Positions 21,431 to 34,784 of a stretch of DNA of 43,606 bases are shown piece by piece (the stretch's first letter is position 1; each line of letters starts with the position of its first letter). Source of the DNA: Anaerolineales bacterium (lineage in GTDB: Bacteria; Chloroflexota; Anaerolineae; Anaerolineales; Villigracilaceae). Position numbers and translations under genes: made by a program. Location of the stretch: positions 1-43,606 of the forward strand of contig JAFGSI010000015.1 of NCBI GenBank assembly GCA_016934715.1, read 5' to 3'. The notes beneath the pieces were generated by a model. The model was not told the DNA's origin, did not search any database, and saw only the letters and a program-made list of their open reading frames with translations.

Positions 21431-23326
21431 ATGCGCAAATACCTTCCATTCATCATTCTTGTCATCCCCCTGCTGGCCTGCACGATCGTCATCCCCCCCT
21501 TCCCGACCTCCGTGGTTCCCGCCACCGCTGACCCCCTCCAACCGCCGACTCCCACCCTGGCGACCTCGCTCCACGGCGAAGACACGCTGGCCGCCCTGTG
21601 GCAGGTAGACCTGCCAGCCTTCGACCCCTATGATTTCGCCCAGCGTTACGAGGGCAAATCCTACGCCGAGGCGCTGCCGCCGGTCACAACGATCCGCCAG
21701 GTCGGCGAACGGGATGCCTTCTGGGTCACCTACGGCGCTGAGACCCCCGCCACCCTGCGCAACGTCACCGAGCACGCCTACTTCTGGGTCCAGGACGGCG
21801 TCTCCTACGACCACAATGCCCTGCTTGCTTTGGGCGAGACCTTCGAATCGACCATCTACCCGCGCACGCGCGACATCTTTGGCAGCGAGTGGAATCCCGG
21901 TGTCGATGGCGACCCGCGCATCTATATCGTCTACACCGACGACGAGACCGGCTCTGGCTCCTTCCCGACCTATGCGGAGATCAACCCTGAATTCGACCCC
22001 GAGTCCGACGGTCACGAGATCATCTTCCTGAGCACCTCCAGCCGCCTGGATGAGGACTACCTCTACGGCGTTCTGGCCCACGAATTCCAGCACGTGATCC
22101 ACTATAACGTCGACCCCAACGAGGAACTCTGGCTTGAGGAGGGCCTCTCCGAACTGGCGGCCTATCGCCTGGGCTACGATCTGGGGGGCTTCGACCGCTA
22201 TTTCACCCGCAACCCCGACATTCGCCTGCTGGAATGGCCCGATGACAACACCAGCGCCTACTACGGTTCAGGAGCCCTTTTCGCCATCTACTTCCAGCAG
22301 CGCTTCGGCGAGGACGCCCTGCGGGCCCTGGTGGCCGACCCGCGCAACGGCATCCGCAGCGTGGAAGCGGTCCTGACCGAACGCCAGATCGTCGACCCGC
22401 TGACCGGCCAGCCGGTCCACGCGGACGACCTGTTCCTCGACTTCGCCATCATGCTCTACCTGGACGACCCGGCTGTCGCCGACGGGCGCTACGCCCTGCC
22501 CGGCTACCCGGACCTGTCCTCGGTCCAGGACACCGACTATTCGCATACCTGCCCGATGGACATCACCCGCCGGGAGGTCAACCAGTACGGCATCGACTAT
22601 CTCGGCATCGCCTGTCCCGGAGAGCACACCCTCCATTTCCAGGGTGCCACCGCCGTCGACCTGCTGCCGACTGAGCCCCACTCGGGTGAATACGCCATGT
22701 GGTCCAACCGCGGCATCAACTCCGACATGACCCTGACCTGCGCCTTCGATTTCAGCAGCCAGAGCGGACCCCTGACCTTCAAGTACTGGACCTGGTACGA
22801 CACCGAGAGCAGCTACGACATGGTTTACCTGACCGCCCTGGGCGAGGGCGACGCCACCTGGACCAACCTGCTGGCCACCTCCCCCAGCGATATCTATGCC
22901 GGCTACACCGGCAGCGGGACGACCTGGCAGGAGCAGACCGTCGACCTGTCGCGCTTCGCCGGCCGCCGGACCCAGGTACGCTTCGAGTACGTCGTCGATT
23001 ACTCGATCTACGGGGACGGTTTCCTGGTAGACGACATCTCGATCCCCGAAACCGGCTACACCACCGATTTCGAATCCGGACCAGACTGCTGGCAGGCCGA
23101 GGGCTTCGCCAGGGTCCAGACAAGCCTGCCGCAGACCTTCCGCCTGGCGCTGATCATCCATGGCCCGAACGGGACCCGGGTCGAGATCGTGACGGTGGCT
23201 CCCGATCAGTCGGCGGCCATCCCGCTGCACCTGGTGGAGGGCGAGCAGGCCACGATCGTCGTGATGGCCACCAACCCCTTCGCCCTTCAGCCAGCCAGCT
23301 ACGACTACCGTGTCACGGCGCCCTGA
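21431..23326 (+). CDS. Secreted lipoprotein metallopeptidase, immune-inhibitor-A-like
   Basis: A 631-residue protein with a lipoprotein signal (VIPLLACT, Cys17) and a Pro/Thr-rich linker. The catalytic module contains HEFQH (His217, Glu218, His221), followed by ELWLEEGLSELA whose Glu236/237 may be the third zinc ligand, as in M6-like gluzincin families. The C-terminal half consists of jellyroll modules with FLVDDISI, typical of immune inhibitor A and MAM-like domains. It should act outside the cell as an anchored protease; the substrate is unknown. Its paralogue lies at 32790-34784, with a similar LPQTFRLALI ending. Confidence 0.88.
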   Translation: MRKYLPFIILVIPLLACTIVIPPFPTSVVPATADPLQPPTPTLATSLHGEDTLAALWQVDLPAFDPYDFAQRYEGKSYAEALPPVTTIRQVGERDAFWVTYGAETPATLRNVTEHAYFWVQDGVSYDHNALLALGETFESTIYPRTRDIFGSEWNPGVDGDPRIYIVYTDDETGSGSFPTYAEINPEFDPESDGHEIIFLSTSSRLDEDYLYGVLAHEFQHVIHYNVDPNEELWLEEGLSELAAYRLGYDLGGFDRYFTRNPDIRLLEWPDDNTSAYYGSGALFAIYFQQRFGEDALRALVADPRNGIRSVEAVLTERQIVDPLTGQPVHADDLFLDFAIMLYLDDPAVADGRYALPGYPDLSSVQDTDYSHTCPMDITRREVNQYGIDYLGIACPGEHTLHFQGATAVDLLPTEPHSGEYAMWSNRGINSDMTLTCAFDFSSQSGPLTFKYWTWYDTESSYDMVYLTALGEGDATWTNLLATSPSDIYAGYTGSGTTWQEQTVDLSRFAGRRTQVRFEYVVDYSIYGDGFLVDDISIPETGYTTDFESGPDCWQAEGFARVQTSLPQTFRLALIIHGPNGTRVEIVTVAPDQSAAIPLHLVEGEQATIVVMATNPFALQPASYDYRVTAP

Positions 23327-23350
23327 AGATCCGCCCGACTTCATCTCCTC

Positions 23351-23373
23351 GTCCCGTCGCTCCGCGACGGGAC
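23351..23373 (+). terminator. Hairpin after the metallopeptidase
   Basis: GTCCCGTCGC and GCGACGGGAC form a perfect 10-bp stem around TCC. There is no U tract. Third member of the GGGAC/GTCCC hairpin set. Confidence 0.5.
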
Positions 23374-23423
23374 GACTCTATCTCCACGGTCCGGGCCGAT
23401 TACCCACACAATTTATCCAACTC

Positions 23424-23437
23424 GTGACAGATATCAC
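23424..23437. promoter_or_regulatory. CRP/FNR-type site, copy 1
   Basis: GTGACAGATATCAC is a GTGA-N6-TCAC dyad of the CRP/FNR superfamily type, upstream of the broken hdrA copy. Bases after it (TTGTA) are shared with copy 2 at 23924. Confidence 0.5.
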
Positions 23438-23543
23438 TTGTATTTCTTTGTGAATACTGGCACTATTACCGCAGGTGTCCTACCCGTCACCCAGGTGCAG
23501 CGCCGAGAGGTTGTTCCCATTTCATCAGAGAAAGGAGACCCTG

Positions 23544-23850
23544 ATGAACCCCCCATCACAGAATCCGACGCGTGAGGAACCCCGCATCGAGGTTGACGGT
23601 GAGGCTGCACGATGAAAGCCAGCCCACTTCCCCACCTGGCGGTTTCCCACCATTCCGCTCACGTGTGCTCCGACCCTGGTCGGGGCCCGATCACGGAAGA
23701 CATCGGCAAGGAAGGCCTGAACCCCTTCCTGTGCCAGAGGACTGGCATGCGCAAGCACGGCGCGTGGGTGGGTGGTTGCTGGCCGCCGGGCGCGCCCTCC
23801 AGATCGTGGCCAGGGCATCGGCGCCCGACCAGCCCGGGGACCCGTTGTAA
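23544..23850 (+). pseudogene. Decayed, internally deleted hdrA copy
   Basis: The segment opens like a gene (AAAGGAG then ATG at 23544) but hits stops. In the frame starting at 23612 it reads HVCSDPGRGPITEDIGKEGL followed directly by NPFLCQRTGMRKHGAWV. The intact HdrA1 reads YMCSDPGQALIADDIRNEGL, then about 26 more residues, then NPFMFQMTNIREHCAWV. The DNA upstream (GTTGACGGTGAGGCTGCAC) also lines up with the GTGGATGTCGAGGCC part of hdrA1. A deletion apparently joined two similar GAGGGCTTG/CAGGGCTCAAC-like stretches. The rest of the gene is missing. It is a relic of a duplication, not functional. Confidence 0.75.
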
Positions 23851-23882
23851 GGAGCAAGCTGTTTCGTTGGGTCGTTTACCGC

Positions 23883-23910
23883 AATCAGCGCACCCCCAAG
23901 TGCGCTGATT
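23883..23910 (+). terminator. Hairpin between hdrA relic and hdr operon
   Basis: AATCAGCGCA and TGCGCTGATT form a 10-bp stem with an 8-base loop, followed by the pyrimidine-rich GTCTGCTCTCTTT. It would separate upstream transcription from the hdr operon promoter. Confidence 0.6.
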
Positions 23911-23923
23911 GTCTGCTCTCTTT

Positions 23924-23937
23924 GTGACACTTATCAC
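23924..23937. promoter_or_regulatory. CRP/FNR-type site, copy 2, upstream of the hdr operon
   Basis: GTGACACTTATCAC, a GTGA-N6-TCAC dyad, lies 75 bp before the hdrA1 start and exactly 500 bp from copy 1. The position suits activation of the operon by a CRP/FNR-family regulator sensing redox, gas or a nucleotide. The regulator itself is not in the window. Confidence 0.55.
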
Positions 23938-24011
23938 TTGTACGACCCGGCAATTTTGATGAAACTGATACGAAATAGAGGTGCTTTTTCTCAGGCAAAG
24001 GAGAACGCCGG

Positions 24012-25991
24012 ATGACTCATTCCGCAAGCACAGCACCGCAGAAGAACCACCGGGTTGGGGTCTACGTATGCCATTGCGGCACCAACATCGCCGGCACGGT
24101 GGATGTCGAGGCCGTGAGAGACTACGCGGCCAGCCTGCCCCACGTGACAACCGCACGCGGCTATACCTATATGTGCTCGGATCCTGGTCAAGCCCTCATT
24201 GCAGACGATATCCGCAATGAGGGCTTGACGCACGTCGTCGTGGCCTCCTGCTCGCCATTGATGCACGAGACCACCTTTCGCCGGGCATGTGCCGAGGCAG
24301 GGCTCAACCCGTTCATGTTCCAGATGACCAACATCCGCGAACACTGCGCGTGGGTCACCGATGACCGGGGCACAGCCACTGCAAAGGCCAAGTCCCTGGT
24401 CGCCGCGGCAGTCGGACGGGTGATCTGGCAGGAGCCCTTCGAGATGCGCCAGGTGGCCATCAAGCAGTCGGCCCTGGTGGTCGGTGGTGGGATCGCTGGC
24501 ATCGAGGCCGCCCTGCGCCTGGCTGACTCGGGCAAGCACGTCACCCTGGTCGAGCGCGAGCCGTCCATCGGCGGACACATGGCCCGGCTTTACAAGACCT
24601 TTCCAACCTTAGACTGCGCGGCTTGAATTCTGACCCCCAAGATGGTGTCCGTTGGACGCCACCCCAACATCACGCTGATGACCTATTCCGAGGTCGAGAA
24701 GGTCTCCGGTTACATCGGCAATTTCACTGTCACGGTCAAACGCAAGCCGCGCTACGTGAACGAGGACCTGTGCACAGGTTGCGGCACCTGCCTGGAGAAA
24801 TGCCCGTGGAAGAAGATCCCTTCCGAGTTCGACTACGGGATGAGCACCCGACCGGCAATTTACTACCCGTTCCCACAGGCAGTGCCGCGCGTTCCAGTGA
24901 TCGATACCGAGAACTGCGCCTACTTCAAGTCCGGGAAGTGCAGGGCCTGCGAGAAGTTCTGCCCGCGCGGGGCGATCGACTTCGATCAGCAGGAACAGCA
25001 CGTCGAGATCGAAGCCGGGACCATCATCCTGGCCACCGGCTTCCAGGACTTCGACCCGCGCAAGGAGACACGCTATCAATACGGCACGCTGCCCAATGTG
25101 GTCACCGGGATGGAACTGGAGCGGATGATCAACTCCGGCGGGCCGACCAACGGCCAGGTCCGCATGAGCGATGGCCGGATCCCGCAGCGGATCGCCGTCC
25201 TGCACTGTGTCGGCAGCCGGGGCGAGTCGCACGAATACTGCTCGCGGGTCTGCTGCATGTACTCGCTCAAACTGGCCACTCTGATCCGCGAATACGTCAA
25301 AGCCGATGTGGTCGAGTTCTACCGCGACATGCGCGCGTTTGGCAAAGATTACGAAGCCTTCTACACACGCACCGAGGAACACGGGGTCAATTTCGTGCGC
25401 TTCGATAACGACCTGCGCGTGGAACCACGCAACGGGCATCTGGCCGTGCTGGCCACCGATGTGTACACCGGCAAGGAAATCGAAGCACCGGTAGATATGG
25501 TCGTCCTGTCGACCGGCATTGAACCCCACGCCGACCAGCAAGCCGTCGGGGCCATCTTTGGCGTCAGCCGCAGCCCGGACGGGTTCTTCCTGGAGAAACA
25601 CCCCAAGATGGCCCCGGTGGAAACCGCCACGGACGGGGTCTTCCTGGCCGGCGCCTGCCAGGGACCGAAGGATATTCCCGACAGCGTCTCGCAGGGTGCC
25701 GCAGCCGCAGCTGCAGCCCTGTCCCTGCTCGATCACGGTACGGTGGAACTCGAACCGTTCACTGCCCAGATCAGTGCCGAGGCCTGCGGCGCCTGCCGCA
25801 CCTGCGAGGGATTGTGCCCCTATGGGGCCATCGCGATGGTCGATTGGAACGGCAGGCAGGTCGCCCAGGTCAACGAAATCCTGTGCAAGGGCTGCGGGGC
25901 CTGCGTGGCCGCCTGCCCGGCCGGTGCGGCCACCCAGAAAGGGTTTACGCTCGACCAGGTCCTTGCCGAGATCGAAGGGATCTTACTCTAG
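24012..25991 (+). CDS. hdrA: HdrA-like flavoprotein, predicted selenoprotein (Sec205)
   Basis: Read through an in-frame TGA at 24624-24626, this is one 659-residue HdrA. N-terminal domain: YVCHCGTNIAGTVDV (Cys20, Cys22), MCSDPG (Cys55), ASCSPL (Cys80) and EHCAW (Cys112). FAD fold: VVGGGIAGIE at 156-165. Then FPTLDCAA-Sec-ILTPKMV, where relatives have Cys. Ferredoxin clusters follow: CTGCGTCLEKCP (254-264), Cys302/310/313/317, and C-terminal CGACRTCEGLCP and CKGCGACVAACP. HdrA is the electron-bifurcating flavin subunit of heterodisulfide-reductase-type complexes. Selenocysteine at this place is known for some HdrA proteins. A conventional annotation would wrongly split it into two genes. AAAGGAG lies 8 bp before the ATG. 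Confidence 0.9.
24624..24661 (+). promoter_or_regulatory. Sec codon and SECIS-like hairpin in hdrA1
   Basis: The UGA is followed 24 bases later by the loop of a stem UGGUGUCC / GGACGCCA (24643-24650, 24654-24661) with loop GUU. Spacing and a GU-containing apical loop suit bacterial SelB-binding elements. Confidence 0.7.
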
Positions 25992-26029
25992 AACGCAGAT
26001 CACGTTGCGTCCCTGACCATGGAGGTTTC

Positions 26030-29000
26030 ATGAACCATTCAAAAATCAAGACCGGTGTGTACGTCTGCCATTGCGGGACCAACATCGCTGGCACGGTGGA
26101 CGTCGCTGCGGTGGCCGAGTTTGCCCGCGGTCTGGCGGGGGTAAGCATCGCCCGTGATTACACGTATATGTGCTCGGATCCCGGCCAGGCCTTGATCAAG
26201 CAGGACATCCAGGAGAATGGTCTCAACCGGATCGTGGTGGCCTCCTGTTCGCCGCTGATGCACGAGCCGACCTTCCGAAGGGCCTGTGCCGAAGCCGGGC
26301 TGAACCCGTTCTTCTGCCAGATGGCCAACATCCGCGAGCACTGCTCATGGGTGGTCGACGACCGGACCCAGGCGACGACCAAGTCCTGCAGCCTGGTGGC
26401 GGCGGCCGTTCGGCGGGTACACCATCACGTGCCGCTGGAGATGCGCCAGGTGGAGATGAACCAGTCGACGCTGATCGTCGGCGCAGGCATCGCCGGGATC
26501 GAAACGGCCCTCAAGCTGGCCGAGGCCGGCAAGCAGGTCTACCTGGTCGAGCGCGAGTCCAGCATCGGCGGCCACATGGCCCAGCTTTACAAGACCTTCC
26601 CAACGCTCGACTGCGCGGCTTGAATACTTACCCCGAAAATGGTGTCCGTCGGACGCCACCCCAACATCAAGCTCTTGACCTGCAGCGAGGTCGAATCGGT
26701 ATCCGGTTACGTAGGCAACTTCACGGTCAATGTCCGCCGCCAGGCCCGCTACATCGATGAGTCAATCTGCGCCGGCTGCGGCCTGTGCGCCTCGGTCTGC
26801 CCGGTCGACGTGATCAACGAATTCGACCAGGGCCTGAGCAAACGCCGGGCTGCCTACCGGGTCTCGGCCCAGGCCGTGCCGGGTGCCTACGCCATCGACA
26901 AGCATGGGGTGGCCCCCTGCCGGGCTGCCTGCCCGACCGACCAGCGCGCCATGGGCTATGTGGCCCTGGTACAGAAGAAGCGCTACGCCGACGCCTACTG
27001 GGCGATCCGCCGTGAGCACCCCTTCCCGTCCGTCTGCGGGCGGGTCTGCAACCGCAACTGCGAAGCGGCCTGCTCACGCGGCAAGGTCGACGAGCCGGTC
27101 AACATCATGGGCATCAAGCGCTTCGTTGCTGACTGGGCCTACGAGCACCGCCACGAACTGCCCAACATGCGCGACAAGTCGATGGTCGGCACGCCCTTCC
27201 AGCACAACCCGCCGCCGACCGGGAAGAAGGTCGCCGTGATCGGGGCCGGGCCGGCCGGCCTGACCGCCGCCCTTGACCTGGTGCGCCTGGGACACGGGGT
27301 CAAGGTCTTCGACGCCCTGCCCAAACCGGGCGGCATGATCCGGGTCGGCATCCCGCCCCACCGCCTGCCCTACGAAATGCTCGACTGGGAGATCCAGCAG
27401 GTCCTGGACGAGGGCGTCGAACTGCAGCTCAATACCTGGGTGGATGACATCCCGGCCATGTTGAAATGGAAGGGGCCCCACGGCGGCCCGTACGACGCCG
27501 TCCTTGTGGCCACCGGAGCGCACGTGGCCAAGAAGGTCAACATCCCCAACAATGAACACCCCGACAACTGGCTGAGCCTGGACTTTCTCAAGCAGGTCTG
27601 CCTGGGGGAATCGCCCGACCTGACCGGCAAACAGGTGGCCGTGATCGGCGGCGGCAACGTGGCCTTGGACTGCGCCCGCTCGGCGGTGCGCCTGGGGGCC
27701 AGCGGCTGCCGGATGATCTTCCGCAAGCCCAAGGGCGAGATGACCGGCTTCGAGTGGGAAGTGGCCGTTGCCGAGGAAGAGGGCGTCGAGATGTGCGGGG
27801 CGACCCTGTTCAAAGAAGTTGTCGTTGAACACGGCGACATCAGCGGCGTGCGCTGCGTCCGCACCGAGTACCACGGCTACGATGCCAGCGGCCGGATCGT
27901 GATCTTCGAACTGCCGGGCAGCGAGCACGTCATCCCGGCCGACATCGTCATCTGGGCCACCGGCCAGGGCTGCGACCTGTCGTTCCTGCCCGAGGACGGC
28001 AGCATCCAGCCGGCCAGCCAGGGGATCGAATCGGATGGCGAGATGATGACCAGCCTGGCGGGCGTCTTCGTGGCCGGCGACGTGCACCGCGGCTCAACCT
28101 TCTATGTGGTCGACGCCATCGGCGAAGGCCACCATGCAGCCCGGGCCATCGACCGCTACCTGCGCGGCGAAGAGGGGATCCCGGAACCGGATCTGCCACC
28201 GGTCGTCGAGCTGGACGTCGACGAGGTCCGGCGGCGCATCGTGCGCGGCGAGGCCTCGGAGCGGGCGCGCATCCCGATTCGCACCATCCCTCTTGAGGAC
28301 CGCAAGCTCAACTTTCGCGAGGTCGACCTGACCCTGACAGAAGAGGAAGCCGTCGCCGAAGCGGAGCGCTGCGTCCGCTGTGGGACCTGTGCCGAGTGCC
28401 TGGAGTGCGTCGCAGTCTGCGATCGGGGTGCCATCAACCACGAGATGCACGCCCGTACCGAGGAACTGACCGTCGGGACGATCGTCCTGGCGACCGGCTT
28501 TCGCGAATTCAACCCCTCCCGGGCGCCCGAACTCAACTACGGCAAACTGCCCAATATCCTGACCGCCCTGGAATTCGAACGCCTGCTCAATGCCAGCGGC
28601 CCGACCCTGGGGAGCGTTACCCTGCAGAACGGCCAGGTGCCCAAGAGCGTGGCGATTGTCCACTGTGTGGGCTCGCGCGACGCAAAGTACAACGAATACT
28701 GCTCGCGGGCCTGCTGCATGTACTCGCTCAAACTCTCCCAGCTGGCCCACGAATACCTCGGCGCCGAGGTGCACGAGATCTACCGCGACATGCGTTCCTT
28801 TGGCAAGGGCTACGAGGAATTCTTCAACCGCACGACCCGCATGGGCGTGCACTTCTATCACGGACGGGTCAAAGCCATCACCAGGAAGAGCGGCAAGCTG
28901 CGCGTATCCTGGACCGAGGCTTTCCACAACCAGCCCGACCACGTCGACGTGGAAATGGTCGTCCTGGCAACCGGCTTCGAACCCCGTGAGGACGCCGGAT

Positions 29001-29458
29001 GGGTGGCCTCCATCTTCGGGATCAACCGCAGCCAGGATGGCTTCTTCCGCGAGCGCCACCCCAAGCTGGCCCCGGTCGAGACCGCCAGCGAGGGCATCTA
29101 CGTGGCGGGGGCTTGCCAGTCACCCAAGGACATCCCTGACAGCGTGACCCAGGCTGGCAGTGCCGCCGCGGTGGCCCTCTCCCTGATGGACCAGGGCACC
29201 ATCGCCCTCGACCCGGCCATCGCCACGGTCAATGAAGCCCACTGCGCCGGCTGCGGCCAGTGTGTGACTGCCTGCCCCTATGGGGCCATCAGCCTGGTCG
29301 ATGCGCGGGCCCAGGTCAATGCCTACGCCTGCAAGGGCTGCGGCACCTGTGCAGCCACCTGCCCGAACAAGGCCATGACCCTGATCCACTACAACGACCG
29401 CCAGATCGTGGCCGAGATCATCGGGGCGCTGGCAGTCGAAAACCCGGAGGCCCTATGA
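26030..29458 (+). CDS. HdrA-like selenoprotein (Sec198) with inserted GltD/NfnL-like NAD(P)H oxidoreductase
   Basis: Reading through TGA at 26621-26623 gives an 1142-residue protein. Residues 1-290 copy HdrA: YVCHCGTNIAGTVDV, FAD fold VGAGIAGIE, FPTLDCAA-Sec-ILTPKMV, then ferredoxin CAGCGLCASVCP. From about 291 an inserted module resembles the glutamate synthase small subunit/NfnL: CRAACPTDQ, CGRVCNRNCEAACSRG, FAD motif VAVIGAGPAGLTAA (401-414), and a second dinucleotide motif VAVIGGGNVALDCA. After a further cluster (CVRCGTCAECLECVAVC) the HdrA C-terminus resumes, with final CAGCGQCVTACP and CKGCGTCAATCP. The fusion would bring NAD(P)H directly to the bifurcating flavin. It begins 39 bp after hdrA1, with GGAGG four bases before the ATG. 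Confidence 0.9.
26621..26658 (+). promoter_or_regulatory. Sec codon and SECIS-like hairpin in the second hdrA
   Basis: The same stem UGGUGUCC / GGACGCCA, here with loop GUC, occurs at the same 24-base distance from UGA as in hdrA1. The bases between UGA and the stem differ between the genes, while the stem is kept. Confidence 0.7.
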
Positions 29459-30786
29459 CCTTCGAACCAAAGATCATCGCCTTTCTGTGCACCTGGTGCT
29501 CCTACACCGGGGCCGACTCGGCCGGCATCGCCCGGAAGAAGTCGCCGGCCAACATCCGCGCCATTCGCGTGCCCTGCTCGGGGCGTGTCTCCCCCGAACT
29601 GGTCATGCGGGCCTTCGACCAGGGCGCAGACGGCGTTCTGGTCCTGGGATGTCACATTGGCGAATGCCACTATGAATCCGGCAACCACCGCACCGCCAAA
29701 CGCCTGCCGGTCCTGCAAAGCCTGCTGACCTATGCCGGCCTGGAACCAGAACGCCTGTACCTGGACTGGGTCTCGGCCTCGGAGGGCGACCGCTTCGCCC
29801 ACATCACGACCGATTTCACTGAGCGGGTTCGGGCCCTGGGCCCTGCCCGTTGGCGGGTGAACCGGGAGGCCTGGCAGCCGGTCTACCGGGCAATGGAGGC
29901 AGCGGTCGCAGCGGTTCCGGCCCCCGCGATGAATTGCGCGGACAAGACCGATGCCATCCGCACCAGGGCTCGCGACCTGCTGGTCAACGGTGATGTCGAA
30001 TGCGTGATCGGCTACGAAGTCAGCCCGCACGGCCGAACCCGCCCAACTTTCGTGTATACCCCGGACGAGACCGAACGCCTGGTCTGGAACCCGGGAGTCA
30101 GCAACAACCTGACCACTTACCTGCCTGTGAAGTTGAACAAGGGCCAACAGCCGGCCAAAGCGGTCGCCGTGGTGGTCAAGCCGTGCGACAGCAAGGCGGT
30201 CAACGTCATGCTGGCCGAGAACCAGTTCAGCCGGGCGCAGGTCCACCTGATCGGGGTGACCTGCGAGGGTGTGGTCGATGCCGAGGGCAATTTGCAGTCC
30301 CGCTGCCAATCCTGCGACGAACGGATGCCAGTGCTCTATGATTCCCTGGTCGGCGAGCCGGTCGAGGGGAAGGCATTGGATCACCCCGCTCCGGTCGACG
30401 AACTGGAGGCCCTGACGCCGCCCGAGCGGATGGAATACTGGCTGAGCCAGTTCGACCGCTGCATCCGCTGCTACGCCTGCCGGCAGGCCTGCCCGATGTG
30501 CAACTGCCCCACCTGCCTGTACGAGCGCGACGACTCGACCTACGCTCCGCTGGGGACCGGCCTGAACGAGAAGCGCACCTTCCATCTCGGTCGGGCCTAC
30601 CACCTGGCCGGGCGCTGCGTGGGCTGCAACGAATGCGAGCGGGCCTGCCCGATGGGCATCCCGATCAGCCGCCTGAACCAGAAACTGGCTGCCACCCTGG
30701 CGGAGACCTTCGGCCACCACGCCGGGCTGGAAGCGATCCCATCGCCGATCGTCACCGTCCTGTCGGGAGAGTACAAGGAGGGATGA
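29455..30786 (+). CDS. MvhD-like subunit fused to an iron-sulfur FdhB/FlxC-like domain
   Basis: A 443-residue fusion. Residues 1-135 are MvhD/FlxD: IIAFLCTWCSYTGADSAG (Cys12, Cys15), VPCSGR (Cys41), VLGCHIGECHY (Cys66, Cys71), the 2Fe-2S protein that passes electrons to HdrA. After a linker, residues about 165-443 resemble the F420-hydrogenase/formate dehydrogenase beta type (VVVKPCDSKAVNVML) with clusters CIRCYACRQACPMCNCPTC and CVGCNECERACPMGIP. Its ATG overlaps the upstream stop (ATGA), so translation is coupled. In FlxABCD-HdrABC operons such parts are separate FlxD and FlxC proteins. The fusion is the unusual point. Confidence 0.88.
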   Translation: MTFEPKIIAFLCTWCSYTGADSAGIARKKSPANIRAIRVPCSGRVSPELVMRAFDQGADGVLVLGCHIGECHYESGNHRTAKRLPVLQSLLTYAGLEPERLYLDWVSASEGDRFAHITTDFTERVRALGPARWRVNREAWQPVYRAMEAAVAAVPAPAMNCADKTDAIRTRARDLLVNGDVECVIGYEVSPHGRTRPTFVYTPDETERLVWNPGVSNNLTTYLPVKLNKGQQPAKAVAVVVKPCDSKAVNVMLAENQFSRAQVHLIGVTCEGVVDAEGNLQSRCQSCDERMPVLYDSLVGEPVEGKALDHPAPVDELEALTPPERMEYWLSQFDRCIRCYACRQACPMCNCPTCLYERDDSTYAPLGTGLNEKRTFHLGRAYHLAGRCVGCNECERACPMGIPISRLNQKLAATLAETFGHHAGLEAIPSPIVTVLSGEYKEG

Positions 30787-30787
30787 G

Positions 30788-31792
30788 ATGAATGCCAAGA
30801 AAGCCGCCATCCCGCAAGAAGACCTGGCCGCCTGGCTGGACGCCGTCGCCGGGCAGCAGACCCTGGTTGCCCCACGCCGAGAGCAGGATGTCGTGCTCTA
30901 CCGCCCGGTGACCGGGAGCGCCGAGATCGCCTGGGAGGCCGAGCGGCCGCTGCTCTCGGTCAAGGAGGTTTTTTTTCCGCCCACCGAGCAGCTGCTGACG
31001 ATCGAGATGGCCGGGACGGAAGTACGCCTGAAGGAAACCCTGCCCGAGGGTCAAACGACCGTCTTCGGGGTGCGCCCCTGCGACGCCCGCGGCGTCAAGC
31101 TGCTCGACGCCCTGTTCCTGGACACCCGGCCGGTCGACCCGCACTACCAGAGGCGCCGCCAGCAGACCACCCTGATCGGCCTGGCCTGCAAGGAAATGGG
31201 CCCGACCTGTTTCTGCACCTCGGTCGGCGGGGCACCCGACGATCCAACCGGCATGGACCTGATGCTTTACACCACCCCCGACGGCTACCTGGCCGAGGCG
31301 ATCACCGACAAGGGCCGCCGCATCCTCGAAGAGACAGGCTGGCCGGAGACGGTCAGCGGAGGTGCAGCGCAGAATGAGGCGAACCGGATCCCGGTCCCCT
31401 CGAAGGCTGAATGGCAGACGCACTTTAATGACGAGTACTGGCTGCGAATGAGTGAGCGCTGCCTGTCCTGCCGGGCCTGCGCCTACGTCTGCCCGACCTG
31501 CCGCTGCTTTGCCGTGCGCGACGAGATGCTGGCGCCGGGTGAGTTCGAACGCATTCGCTGCTGGGACTCGTGCGCCGGAGAGAACTACCGGCGGGTGGCC
31601 GGCGGGCACAAGCCGCGCCCCGAGAAAGGCGAGCGCCTGCGCAACCGCTTCTACTGCAAGTTCTTCTACTTCTCCGAACAATACCACCTGGAGGAGACCG
31701 TCGCCTGCACGGGTTGCGGGCGATGCATTGACGTCTGCCCGGTCGGGGTGGACATCCGCGAAGTGCTGACCGATCTCGGGAGGCCCCAATGA
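30788..31792 (+). CDS. 4Fe-4S dicluster subunit, FlxB/AsrA/sulfhydrogenase-beta-like
   Basis: A 334-residue cytoplasmic protein. The N-terminal part has FGVRPCDARGVKLLDALFL, typical of the AsrA/HydB/FlxB family. The C-terminal part has two cluster motifs, CLSCRACAYVCPTCRC and CTGCGRCIDVCPVGVD. It should relay electrons between the NAD(P)H-oxidising flavoprotein and the MvhD-HdrA module. It starts one base after the previous stop and its stop overlaps the next start (ATGA), so the genes are tightly coupled. AsrA of anaerobic sulfite reductase is the main alternative, but no asrC (siroheme subunit) is present here. Confidence 0.88.
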   Translation: MNAKKAAIPQEDLAAWLDAVAGQQTLVAPRREQDVVLYRPVTGSAEIAWEAERPLLSVKEVFFPPTEQLLTIEMAGTEVRLKETLPEGQTTVFGVRPCDARGVKLLDALFLDTRPVDPHYQRRRQQTTLIGLACKEMGPTCFCTSVGGAPDDPTGMDLMLYTTPDGYLAEAITDKGRRILEETGWPETVSGGAAQNEANRIPVPSKAEWQTHFNDEYWLRMSERCLSCRACAYVCPTCRCFAVRDEMLAPGEFERIRCWDSCAGENYRRVAGGHKPRPEKGERLRNRFYCKFFYFSEQYHLEETVACTGCGRCIDVCPVGVDIREVLTDLGRPQ

Positions 31793-32628
31793 GCACCTCT
31801 GAAAAGACCATGACCCCCTATCTCGGCAAACTGGCCAAGGTGCATGATCTGGCCGCTGAGATCAAACTCCTGCGGGTCGAGCTGCTCAACGGTGGGGGCG
31901 AAGCCTTCGCGAATTTCCAGCCCGGGCAGTTCGCCTTCATCTCGGCCTTCGGCCTGGGGGAGGCCCCCTTCGGGATCGCCAACGCGGCCCAACGCGGGCC
32001 GTATATCGAATTTGCCATCGCCCGCCTGGGATCGGTGACAACCGGCCTGCACGAACTGGGGGAGGGCGATGTGGTCGGGGTGCGCGGCCCGCTGGGGAAC
32101 TGTTTTCCGATGGACGAATTCAAAGGCAAGAACCTGCTCGTCCTGGGCGGCGGGATCGGCGGAGCGCCGCTGCGCCCGGTCATCCAGCACGTCCTCGACC
32201 AGCGCGGCGACTACGGCAGGCTGACCATCCTGTGGGCCGCCCGCCACCCCTCGCTGCTGGTCTTTACCGACGAGTACGACGAGTGGCGCGGGGCTCCCAA
32301 TACCGAACTGTTCCTGACGGTTGACAATCCCGACGAAACCTGGAACCATGATGTCGGCCTGATCACCCAGCTGCTTGAGAAGGTCGCCCCCTCACCGGAG
32401 AACGCCATCGCGGTGACCTGCGGCCCGCCGGTGATGATCTACCACACCACCCGCATGCTCGAGAAAATGGGCTTTGCCCCCGAGGCCAGCTACGTGACCC
32501 TGGAGGCACGCATGCACTGCGGCCTGGGCAAGTGCGGCCGCTGCAACCTGGGCGAGAAGCTGATCTGCGTCGACGGGCCGGTGTTCAACATGCAGGCAGT
32601 CGGGAATCTGCTGGAGACCTATTTGTAG
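31789..32628 (+). CDS. FAD/NAD(P)-binding oxidoreductase, FlxA/AsrB/sulfhydrogenase-gamma-like
   Basis: A 279-residue ferredoxin-reductase-type flavoprotein. The FAD-binding barrel is at about 10-105 (FQPGQFAFIS, GVRGPLGNCFP), NAD(P) fold with LLVLGGGIGGAPLRP at about 119-133, then the C-terminal CGLGKCGRCNLG...CVDGPVF, the 2Fe-2S site of the PyrK/AsrB family. It would oxidise NAD(P)H and pass electrons to the FlxB-like partner, or work in reverse. Last gene of the hdr/flx operon: 160 bp of non-coding DNA follow. Confidence 0.9.
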   Translation: MSTSEKTMTPYLGKLAKVHDLAAEIKLLRVELLNGGGEAFANFQPGQFAFISAFGLGEAPFGIANAAQRGPYIEFAIARLGSVTTGLHELGEGDVVGVRGPLGNCFPMDEFKGKNLLVLGGGIGGAPLRPVIQHVLDQRGDYGRLTILWAARHPSLLVFTDEYDEWRGAPNTELFLTVDNPDETWNHDVGLITQLLEKVAPSPENAIAVTCGPPVMIYHTTRMLEKMGFAPEASYVTLEARMHCGLGKCGRCNLGEKLICVDGPVFNMQAVGNLLETYL

Positions 32629-32789: not shown

Positions 32790-34784
32790 ATGCAGAAATC
32801 CACTCCCGTCATCCCGATCATCCTGGTCATCCTGCTGGCAGTCTGTTGCTGCCTGCTGGTCGTCTTCGGCAGCATCTACTTGATCTTCGACCGCCTCGGC
32901 AGCACGATCCTGCCATCCGTCCAGGCCCTCGATCCCTTCGGCCCGACCCCGACCCCGGTCGAGGTGACCCGCGTCCCGATCGGTGAGATCCCCACCGGCA
33001 CACTCCAACTGCTCGAGCAGACCATCGTCCCGGCCAACCACCTGCCGGACCTGGCCTGCCGCCTGCAAGGCAACTGCGACATCCCCGAGACAGTGCCCGC
33101 CCCGTCCGTCCCGCTGACGGTCGGGACCCGCCAGACCTTCTGGGCCAACGATACCGACGCCAACGAGAACTTCCAGGTCGAGGCCGAATTGCTCTACATC
33201 ACCGAGCATGCCTATTTCTGGGCTGAAACCGGGATCCGCGTTGACGAGAACGACATGCGGGCCCTTCTGGATACCTTCGAGAACGAGATCTATCCCACCA
33301 ACCGGGCCTTCTTCGGCTCGGAGTGGACCCCAGGCGTCGACAACGATCCGCATATCTACATCCTCTATCTCAACAACATCGGCTTCTCGGTGGCCGGCTA
33401 CTTCTCGCTGTCTGACGAATTCCACCCCCTGGCCCACGAGTATTCCAATGCCCACGAGATGTTCTACATCAACGCCACCCAGGACCTGGGAGCCGAATAC
33501 ACCTACGGTGTCCTGTCCCACGAGTTCCAGCATATGATCCACTGGTACCAGGACGCCAACGAGGGCGCTTTCATCGATGAGGGCTTCGCCGAACTGGCCA
33601 CCCACATCAATGGATACGGCACCGGAGGCTTCGACTGGTTCTACGCCAACACTCCCGACATCCCGCTGACCGACTGGCTGCCCGATCCAGGCACCAACAC
33701 CGCTCATTACGGAGCCAATTTTCTCTTCTCGGTCTACTTCCTCGACCGCTTCGGCGACGAGATCACCCAGGCCGTGGTCAACGAACAGACCAACGGCCTG
33801 TACAGCGTCGACGTCGTCCTGGAGCAGCACCAGGTCACCGACCCGCTGACCGGGGAACTGATCAACGCCGATGATTTCTTTCTCGACTGGACGATCGCCA
33901 ACTACATCCACGACGCCGGCGTCGGCGACGGTCGCTACTTCTATTCCAACTATCCCAATTCACCCCAGGTCCGGCCCACCGAGACCATTGCGACCTGCCC
34001 GCTGGCTCCGACCGGGCGCGACGTCAACCAGTACGGCGTGGATTACATCCAGATCACCTGCAGCGCTCCCTACACGATCACCTTCAGCGGCTCAACCACC
34101 ACCCGCGTCATCCCGGCCGACCCGCACTCGGGCAGCTACGTCTTCTGGTCGAACAAGGGGGACCAGTCGGACATGACCATGACGCGCACTTTCGACCTGA
34201 GCAGCGTGTCCGGCCCGGTGGCGATGACCTACTGGACCTGGTATGACATCGAGGAAGACTGGGATTACGTCTACGTGGAAGCCTCCACCGACGGCATGCA
34301 ATGGGACATCCTGATCAGCCCCTCCGGCACCGACGAGGATCCGATGGGCAACTCCTACGGCTGGGGCTACACCGGCCTGAGCAACGGCTGGATCGAGGAA
34401 TCGGTCGACCTCTCGGCTTACGCCGGGGCAGAGACCGTCTACGTCCGCTTCGAGTACGTCACCGACGCCCGGGTCAACGGCGAGGGGTTCCTGGTCGACG
34501 ACATCGCCATTGCGGCCATCGGTTACAGCGAAGATTTCGAAGCCGGGACGGGCAGCTGGGATGGCACCGGCTTCGTGCGCATCGAGAACATCCTGCCGCA
34601 GACCTTCCGGCTGGCGCTGATCCTGGAGGGCGCAGATGGGACAACAGTCCAGATCGTGGAGGTCAGTTCCGAGCAGACCGCCGAGATCAGTGTCCCGGCG
34701 GGAACCCGCAGCGCGACCCTGGTCGTCACCGCCACGAACCGCTTCACCCGCCTGCCAACAGGCTACGAGATCGAAATCCGCTAG
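32790..34784 (+). CDS. Membrane-anchored/secreted metallopeptidase, immune-inhibitor-A-like
   Basis: A 664-residue paralogue of the protein at 21431. It starts with a very hydrophobic segment (about 7-33, containing CCC), either an uncleaved anchor or a signal, followed by a Pro/Thr linker (FGPTPTPVEVT). The catalytic HEFQH is at 244-248 (YGVLSHEFQHMIHW), with Glu264 in FIDEGFAELA as possible third ligand. C-terminal modules (MAM/jellyroll-like, FLVDDIAIAAIG) and the ending LPQTFRLALI match the paralogue. Extracellular protease or adhesin-like peptidase; substrate unknown. Confidence 0.87.
   Translation: MQKSTPVIPIILVILLAVCCCLLVVFGSIYLIFDRLGSTILPSVQALDPFGPTPTPVEVTRVPIGEIPTGTLQLLEQTIVPANHLPDLACRLQGNCDIPETVPAPSVPLTVGTRQTFWANDTDANENFQVEAELLYITEHAYFWAETGIRVDENDMRALLDTFENEIYPTNRAFFGSEWTPGVDNDPHIYILYLNNIGFSVAGYFSLSDEFHPLAHEYSNAHEMFYINATQDLGAEYTYGVLSHEFQHMIHWYQDANEGAFIDEGFAELATHINGYGTGGFDWFYANTPDIPLTDWLPDPGTNTAHYGANFLFSVYFLDRFGDEITQAVVNEQTNGLYSVDVVLEQHQVTDPLTGELINADDFFLDWTIANYIHDAGVGDGRYFYSNYPNSPQVRPTETIATCPLAPTGRDVNQYGVDYIQITCSAPYTITFSGSTTTRVIPADPHSGSYVFWSNKGDQSDMTMTRTFDLSSVSGPVAMTYWTWYDIEEDWDYVYVEASTDGMQWDILISPSGTDEDPMGNSYGWGYTGLSNGWIEESVDLSAYAGAETVYVRFEYVTDARVNGEGFLVDDIAIAAIGYSEDFEAGTGSWDGTGFVRIENILPQTFRLALILEGADGTTVQIVEVSSEQTAEISVPAGTRSATLVVTATNRFTRLPTGYEIEIR

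Follow-up and report, generated by a model that had tools for sequence, protein, structure and literature searches.

The stretch of DNA discussed here, called the window throughout, comprises 43,606 nucleotides from an Anaerolineales bacterium of the Chloroflexota (contig JAFGSI010000015.1, forward strand). It harbours two adjacent genes of the HdrA family, hdrA and hdrL, each of which is interrupted by a single in-frame UGA at the position of a conserved cysteine. Both UGAs are very probably recoded as selenocysteine (Sec). The pertinent features are:

24012-25991, + strand: hdrA, type I HdrA core, 659 amino acids with the putative Sec as residue 205; one internal TGA in an otherwise open frame
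24624-24626, + strand: UGA, putative Sec codon of hdrA; aligns with Cys197 of PDB entry 5odc_A
24643-24661, + strand: hairpin of hdrA, of the type of a bacterial selenocysteine insertion sequence (SECIS), 8 bp, loop GUU; from fold, codon shuffling and family comparison
26030-29458, + strand: hdrL, HdrA with an inserted Fer4_20 plus Pyr_redox_2 (GltD/NfnB-like) module at about residues 295-715; putative Sec as residue 198
26621-26623, + strand: UGA, putative Sec codon of hdrL; in-frame TGA at the Cys position of HdrA
26640-26658, + strand: bacterial SECIS-type hairpin of hdrL, 8 bp, loop GUC; from fold, codon shuffling and family comparison

Two neighbouring HdrA genes with an internal UGA

The similarity of hdrA to a characterised HdrA extends over its full length: residues 13-657 align to 5odc_A with E 4.3e-220. 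Counted by hand on this alignment, the UGA falls on Cys197 (5odc_A numbering), so that Sec would stand where the solved HdrA has this cysteine. Its role in the HdrA structure was reportedly described by Wagner et al. in 2017. PMC12054007 does not mention "Cys197". The second gene is a composite. Residues 7-292 and 787-1132 of hdrL align to 5odc_A, residues 295-715 or so to the small subunit of glutamate synthase and to Nfn-type proteins. A GltD-like module is thus placed between the N- and the C-terminal part of an HdrA, an architecture for which PMC2702500 uses the name HdrL and PMC12054007 the name type III HdrA. The insert contains GAGPAG at 405 and GGGNVA at 540, which we infer to be the FAD motif and a nucleotide motif of the NADP type, respectively.

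The model NF040770 of NCBIfam, which describes HdrA2 with a fused MvhD, is matched by hdrA with E 1.1e-248 and 827.3 bits, over its positions 1-639 only, and by hdrL with 788 bits. Both miss the curated cut-off (1100 bits, 777 positions). The MvhD part of the model (positions 647-774) is matched by a separate gene at 29455-30786.

Around the TGA both genes encode LDCAA-U-ILTPKMVSVGRHPNI. A preliminary description of this DNA had recognised the UGA at the conserved Cys in two tandem HdrA genes, the frames open on both sides and the homology running across. All this stands. It had also given the common motif behind the UGA as ILTPK(M)V; the motif is indeed shared, but each copy reads ILTPKMV. 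Its warning that automated annotation would report four broken proteins is fair, because reading with table 11 splits hdrA and hdrL into four pieces: the open reading frames are 24012-24626 and 24642-25991 for hdrA, and for hdrL 25814-26623, which includes its front part, and 26639-29458. The stop codon of hdrL itself is also a TGA.

Sec machinery and the hairpin behind the UGA

The machinery that the preliminary description proposed to look for is present in the genome (4.09 Mb, 97.8% complete): selA (527.2 bits versus a cut-off of 267.9), selB (357 versus 242.25), selD (366.7 versus 125) and a tRNA-Sec above the gathering score, for which ARAGORN finds the anticodon tca. The selD gene, too, contains one in-frame TGA; with SSCAG-U near its start (L016 882-1811, - strand), its product is itself a predicted selenoprotein. 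Orthologous hdrA was seen in ten of 61 genomes, the window's own included; selA is over the cut-off in all ten and selB in nine, the remaining one being G036 (85% complete). The tRNA-Sec was found in the window's genome and in eight of the nine relatives, not in G002 (86% complete). SelB and Sec-tRNA would decode the UGAs at 24624 and 26621 as Sec, directed by a hairpin within the coding sequence.

A bacterial SECIS is a hairpin located just 3' of the UGA within the gene; it has a small loop with an early G. By this loop and distance rule, both hairpins of the window qualify. They read UGGUGUCC-GUU-GGACGCCA in hdrA and UGGUGUCC-GUC-GGACGCCA in hdrL, in short UGGUGUCC-GUY-GGACGCCA; the stem starts 16 nt past the TGA and the loop begins 24 nt past it in either gene. 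The equal distance had been seen correctly before, the loop had not: it is a three-base GUY instead of GU.

A search of 22000-32000 against Rfam at relaxed threshold yielded two sub-threshold matches, none of them credible, and the hairpin was therefore tested by comparison. The family table holds 154 deduplicated rows (182 matches with duplicates). Its named Sec loci were collected with a pattern that requires TGA, and the Sec counts apply to the matches listed. Among these, 120 of 122 bacterial Sec rows have a stem of at least 6 bp behind the codon, and 114 of the 122 have a G among the first two loop bases. In contrast, such a stem is seen in 4 of the 23 Cys rows from bacteria and in none of 8 archaeal Sec rows; the stem in the sole archaeal Cys row has 6 bp and is weak. 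Archaeal SECIS elements sit in 3'-untranslated regions (PMC11227280).

Codon shuffling kept the protein and the window's codon usage fixed and generated 100,000 versions for each of the two hairpins of the window. Across the family, the fraction of shuffled versions that score at least as high as the real stem has a median of 0.030 in 121 of the bacterial Sec rows listed (84 below 0.05, none above 0.2) and of 0.705 in the 23 bacterial Cys rows (none below 0.05, 20 above 0.2). It exceeds 0.2 in all 8 archaeal Sec rows and amounts to 0.79 in the archaeal Cys row. L137 was left out of the shuffling, its frame stopping 13 codons past the UGA. The 23 rows of the Cys group comprise the loci matching the site motif; another eight loci of the Cys type, with ...TPR, were examined for the codon only, which is TGC or TGT in all eight.

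Some rows are peculiar. L075, from a contig titled archaeon and counted among the bacterial Sec rows, combines Sec-HdrA with a hairpin of the bacterial type; in the tree it groups with Thermodesulfobacteriaceae and is probably mis-binned. L137 (4097 onward) and L149 (3672 onward) show the Sec-HdrA pattern and the hairpin, yet their similarity ends a few codons later; they are either chimeras or truncated copies.

Several points weigh against Sec insertion. Taken alone, one hairpin of the window is about a 2% event under codon shuffling (2095 of the 100,000 versions score at least as high in hdrA, 2120 in hdrL), which is suggestive. The folds of the 48-nt stretches, with z-scores of -1.98 and -2.70 for hdrA and hdrL, respectively, are weak alone, and the two hairpins do not count independently, the genes being paralogues. 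The family rows are related and the Sec pattern demands TGA, hence P values are nominal. Finally, selB and selA exceed their cut-offs in 51 and 49, respectively, of the 61 genomes of the order, with or without Sec-HdrA. Being that common, they permit recoding and do not prove it. The case for the hairpin is nevertheless strong because of the family-wide contrast between Sec, Cys and archaeal rows, not because of the single stems of the window.

The same contrast bears on the view that the UGA is read through, or read by a near-cognate tRNA as Cys or Trp, and that the hairpin is a by-product of protein constraint. The amino acids encoded by the stem are indeed conserved, and one stem by itself is nothing extreme. 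However, the Cys-type hdrL of G001 encodes the same MVSVGRHPNI as the window, but GTC and GGC replace GTG and GGA, and these synonymous codons open the stem. More generally, the Cys orthologues have near-identical amino acids at the site and have not kept the hairpin, and the archaeal Sec genes do without it. Bacterial lineages, moreover, differ in the sequence of the stem at about the same place: GGAUGUC-GGUC-GACAUCC in Desulfobacterales, GGAGGCC-GGUA-GGUCUCC in Thermodesulfobacteria and GGUUGACGC-GGC-GCGUCAACC in other Chloroflexi. We consider such read-through highly improbable.

Sec-Sec and Cys-Cys pairs in relatives

The search for HdrA covered the 61 genomes, of which 39 gave a match. 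HdrL was searched in 400 genomes of the order; 69 matched at 1e-200 or better, and the matches listed are mostly distant proteins of less than 50% identity. Twelve genomes, the window's included, have hdrA and hdrL in tandem with both sites readable, and the pair is concordant in all of them. Nine are Sec-Sec pairs (window, G008, G017, G030, G143, G180, G212, G252 and G321), three are Cys-Cys pairs (G001, G002 and G015); a mixed pair did not occur among the twelve. In G005, G027, G036, G076, G178 and G399 the pair is split by contig ends or lies on separate contigs, and the visible sites are all TGA. The twelve pairs are not independent, and one or two changes may lie behind all three Cys pairs. 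Both genes are of the Cys type in G001 and G015, which nevertheless retain selA, selB and tRNA-Sec.

The preliminary description had called two adjacent Sec-HdrA copies, one of them a fusion, unusual. This is partly right: the tandem of HdrA and HdrL is the usual form in this clade, and adjacent Sec-HdrA genes and Sec-containing HdrA/glutamate synthase fusions are on record from other phyla (PMC1794560, PMC2702500). G008 and G030 even have a third Sec copy, another hdrL located upstream. In each of the two hdrL copies of G008 (L182 4780-4930 and 10320-10470) about 60 nt are missing near residues 67-88, with a change of frame, which is due either to assembly collapse of near-identical copies or to decay.

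Could the UGAs be true stops, i.e., the result of a nonsense mutation, a sequencing error or a pseudogene? Standard gene calling, which splits both genes, would have it so. The identical codon, however, is found at the same place in independent assemblies, the hairpin is maintained, and selection beyond the UGA is purifying. In the comparison of hdrA with G008, non-synonymous (dN) and synonymous divergence (dS) are 0.15 and 1.19 before the UGA, 0.14 and 1.07 after it; for hdrL versus G017, dN is 0.12 upstream and 0.26 downstream of the UGA, dS 0.84 upstream and 1.05 downstream. Purifying selection is thus supported on both sides of the UGA in hdrA and hdrL. Nor was any other stop codon, which the preliminary description had named as a possible refutation, met at the sites read: a protein search that left the codon unconstrained returned TGA, TGC or TGT only (a TAA-bearing match of a distant protein in G145 is outside this reading). 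The TAA or TAG within matches of G008, G030 and G180 lie elsewhere than the Sec site. We regard true stops as hardly credible.

Another HdrA of the window's genome, 54% identical and located at C48:106462-108429, carries a TGC codon at the Sec site, with no such hairpin behind it. The paralogue G030:C144 also has TGC there, and the one TGA in its match must therefore lie elsewhere. L021 and L024, distant HdrA-like loci of the window's genome, lack the site motif. A genome-wide reassignment of UGA to a sense codon such as Trp or Gly, the least probable of all explanations, would account for an in-frame UGA within conserved genes, but hdrL and several orthologous hdrA and hdrL genes terminate at UGA, the Sec machinery is present, and the residue is Cys in the Cys-type relatives read.

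Given the concordant pairs, the Cys genes without hairpin, the family-wide contrast of the stems and the machinery, recoding of both UGAs is therefore about as well backed as a sequence permits.

In which direction the residue changed has been addressed with trees. The full-length HdrL tree unites the Cys copies in a single clade (100/100), apart from the window copy; in the full-length HdrA tree they may form one or two groups. A branch that separates the Cys rows, together with the outgroup, from all other rows is present in 2% and 0% of the bootstrap trees. The outgroup branch of HdrL is very long (4.52), and the outgroups of HdrA are Cys paralogues. We claim that the Cys copies lie among the Sec copies, and a replacement of Sec by Cys in both genes is favoured for this reason as the more parsimonious direction. 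Table 1 of PMC1794560 (2006 data) lists no Sec-to-Cys event for HdrA.

A tree of the N-terminal part, built by in-frame extraction around the site (44 of 154 rows, shorter than 170 residues, were dropped), grouped the window copies with the Cys copies in a sister position, with support of 91 and 92. This is contradicted by the full-length trees and was discarded. The odd residues in the Sec column of the first N-terminal extraction, some 20 per 100 rows, were taken as mis-registration.

The gene cluster and its relation to known systems

Four more features belong to the cluster:

23924-23937, + strand: candidate operator GTGACACTTATCAC upstream of hdrA; a palindrome
29455-30786, + strand: flxD-flxC-like fusion, an MvhD/FlpD domain followed by a 4Fe-4S dicluster part; the Flx name is inferred
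30788-31792, + strand: flxB-like (HydB/AsrA-related) iron-sulfur protein; below the curated cut-offs of named models
31789-32628, + strand: flxA-like (HydG/AsrB-related) FAD/NAD(P)-binding protein; below the curated cut-offs of named models

The start of the flxDC-like gene overlaps the stop of hdrL (ATGA), and the order hdrA, hdrL, MvhD-Fer4, HydB/AsrA-like, HydG/AsrB-like is kept in relatives. Probably, hdrA and hdrL are co-transcribed. The domain make-up of the three downstream genes fits Flx proteins; their matches include no Flx model, and the roles of the subunits are presumed. The products, HdrA and an HdrL carrying the GltD/NfnB-like NAD(P)H module, would join the Flx-like proteins in a bifurcating or confurcating complex, which probably links NAD(P)H to ferredoxin. 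The key residues of bifurcation, K409 and E356 (PMC12054007), have conserved equivalents in K420 and E370 of hdrA and in K901 and E850 of hdrL. An awkward fact is that hdrB and hdrC are not among the three genes downstream of hdrL; CCG-domain proteins occur in the genome only on C48 (near the Cys-HdrA), C59 and C66. For bifurcation or confurcation of electrons between NAD(P)H and ferredoxin as the actual reaction we see an even chance. More speculative, and rather unlikely as a whole, is an HdrBC-free heterodimeric hybrid of Hdr and Nfn, in which NADH would enter via FlxA, NADP(H) via the GltD insert of HdrL and ferredoxin via the HdrA core, both cores having Sec at the matched site. The two sites would then evolve as a unit, the change from Sec to Cys fixing in both genes together despite retained Sec machinery.

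Upstream, the palindrome GTGAYANNTRTCAC is seen at 23424-23437, before an hdrA remnant, and at 23924-23937, before hdrA. When one mismatch is allowed, the window contains these two matches and no others, with 0.16 expected. We take it to be a candidate operator of the Rex or CRP/FNR type. A looser pattern finds similar palindromes ahead of the cluster in G008, G001, G002, G036 and, at two places, G017, and a less similar one in G015; it finds none in G030, G005, L088 and G027, nor in front of the inner hdrA of G008. The remnant at 23618-23769 is a decayed fragment of the hdrA type just upstream of hdrA. Its best match is 82% over 56 nt to the hdrA of G008 (E 6e-10), followed by 77% over 61 nt to that of the window, which is consistent with a lost third copy. 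The whole hdr-flx cluster is flanked by genes for two proteins with an InhA-like MAM domain (PF20773) at 21431-23326 and 32790-34784, which perhaps are paralogues.

Automated annotation fragments such genes, and an energy-metabolism complex is therefore easily overlooked in Chloroflexota. Beyond that, the clade offers a natural experiment: one operon with either Sec-Sec or Cys-Cys pairs, in relatives that keep the Sec machinery. With it one can study the contribution of selenium to flavin-based electron bifurcation and the need, if any, for the two sites to match. A search that left most of the subscription literature outside revealed no published report of an operon hdrA-hdrL-flxDC-flxB-flxA without hdrBC in Chloroflexota, nor of paired Sec/Cys switching with selA and selB kept.

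Sec in HdrA is known from methanogens, Asgard archaea and bacteria (PMC1794560, PMC11227280, PMC13188914), in line with the preliminary description, which had named methanogens and some bacteria. The Methanococcales loci L081 and L107 have UGA at the same HdrA site. In Methanococcus maripaludis HdrA exists in a Sec and a Cys form (PMC11097638); unlike in the window's clade, that organism's genome encodes both forms at once, and they respond to selenium. For Chloroflexota, hdr clusters and Sec-containing formate dehydrogenases have been described (PMC5736913, PMC4959059), and HdrA is not called a selenoprotein in the text available. The type III HdrA of ANME-1 and Bathyarchaeota also has GltD inserted, and a reaction with NAD(P)H was proposed; the selenoprotein label is absent in that text, and the GltD motif is GXGXXG versus GAGPAG plus GGGNVA in the window (PMC12054007). 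Like FlxABCD-HdrABC (via PMC6687939, PMC12054007), the window has Flx-like proteins beside HdrA, but hdrB and hdrC were not found in its cluster. Syntrophobacter fumaroxidans, a deltaproteobacterium, has seven Sec-HdrA proteins, hdrA genes clustered in an operon, and unsplit and split forms; it differs by the association with frhD-frhG-frhA and glpC (PMC1794560). Similar, too, is Desulfobacterium autotrophicum HRM2: its HdrL1 and HdrL3 are Sec-containing fusions of HdrA and glutamate synthase beside mvhD, and a tandem hdrL/hdrA locus (VIII) has been described. The HdrA and HdrL genes given as Sec in its list are hdrA1, hdrA2, hdrL1 and hdrL3, without hdrA4, which is named for locus VIII (PMC2702500). 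The window pair, in contrast, has UGA in both genes, is followed by the MvhD-Fer4 fusion and the flxB- and flxA-like genes, and belongs to Chloroflexota. The Sec-HdrA pair is not new in kind: tandem Sec-HdrA has been published for Syntrophobacter and Sec-HdrL for D. autotrophicum.

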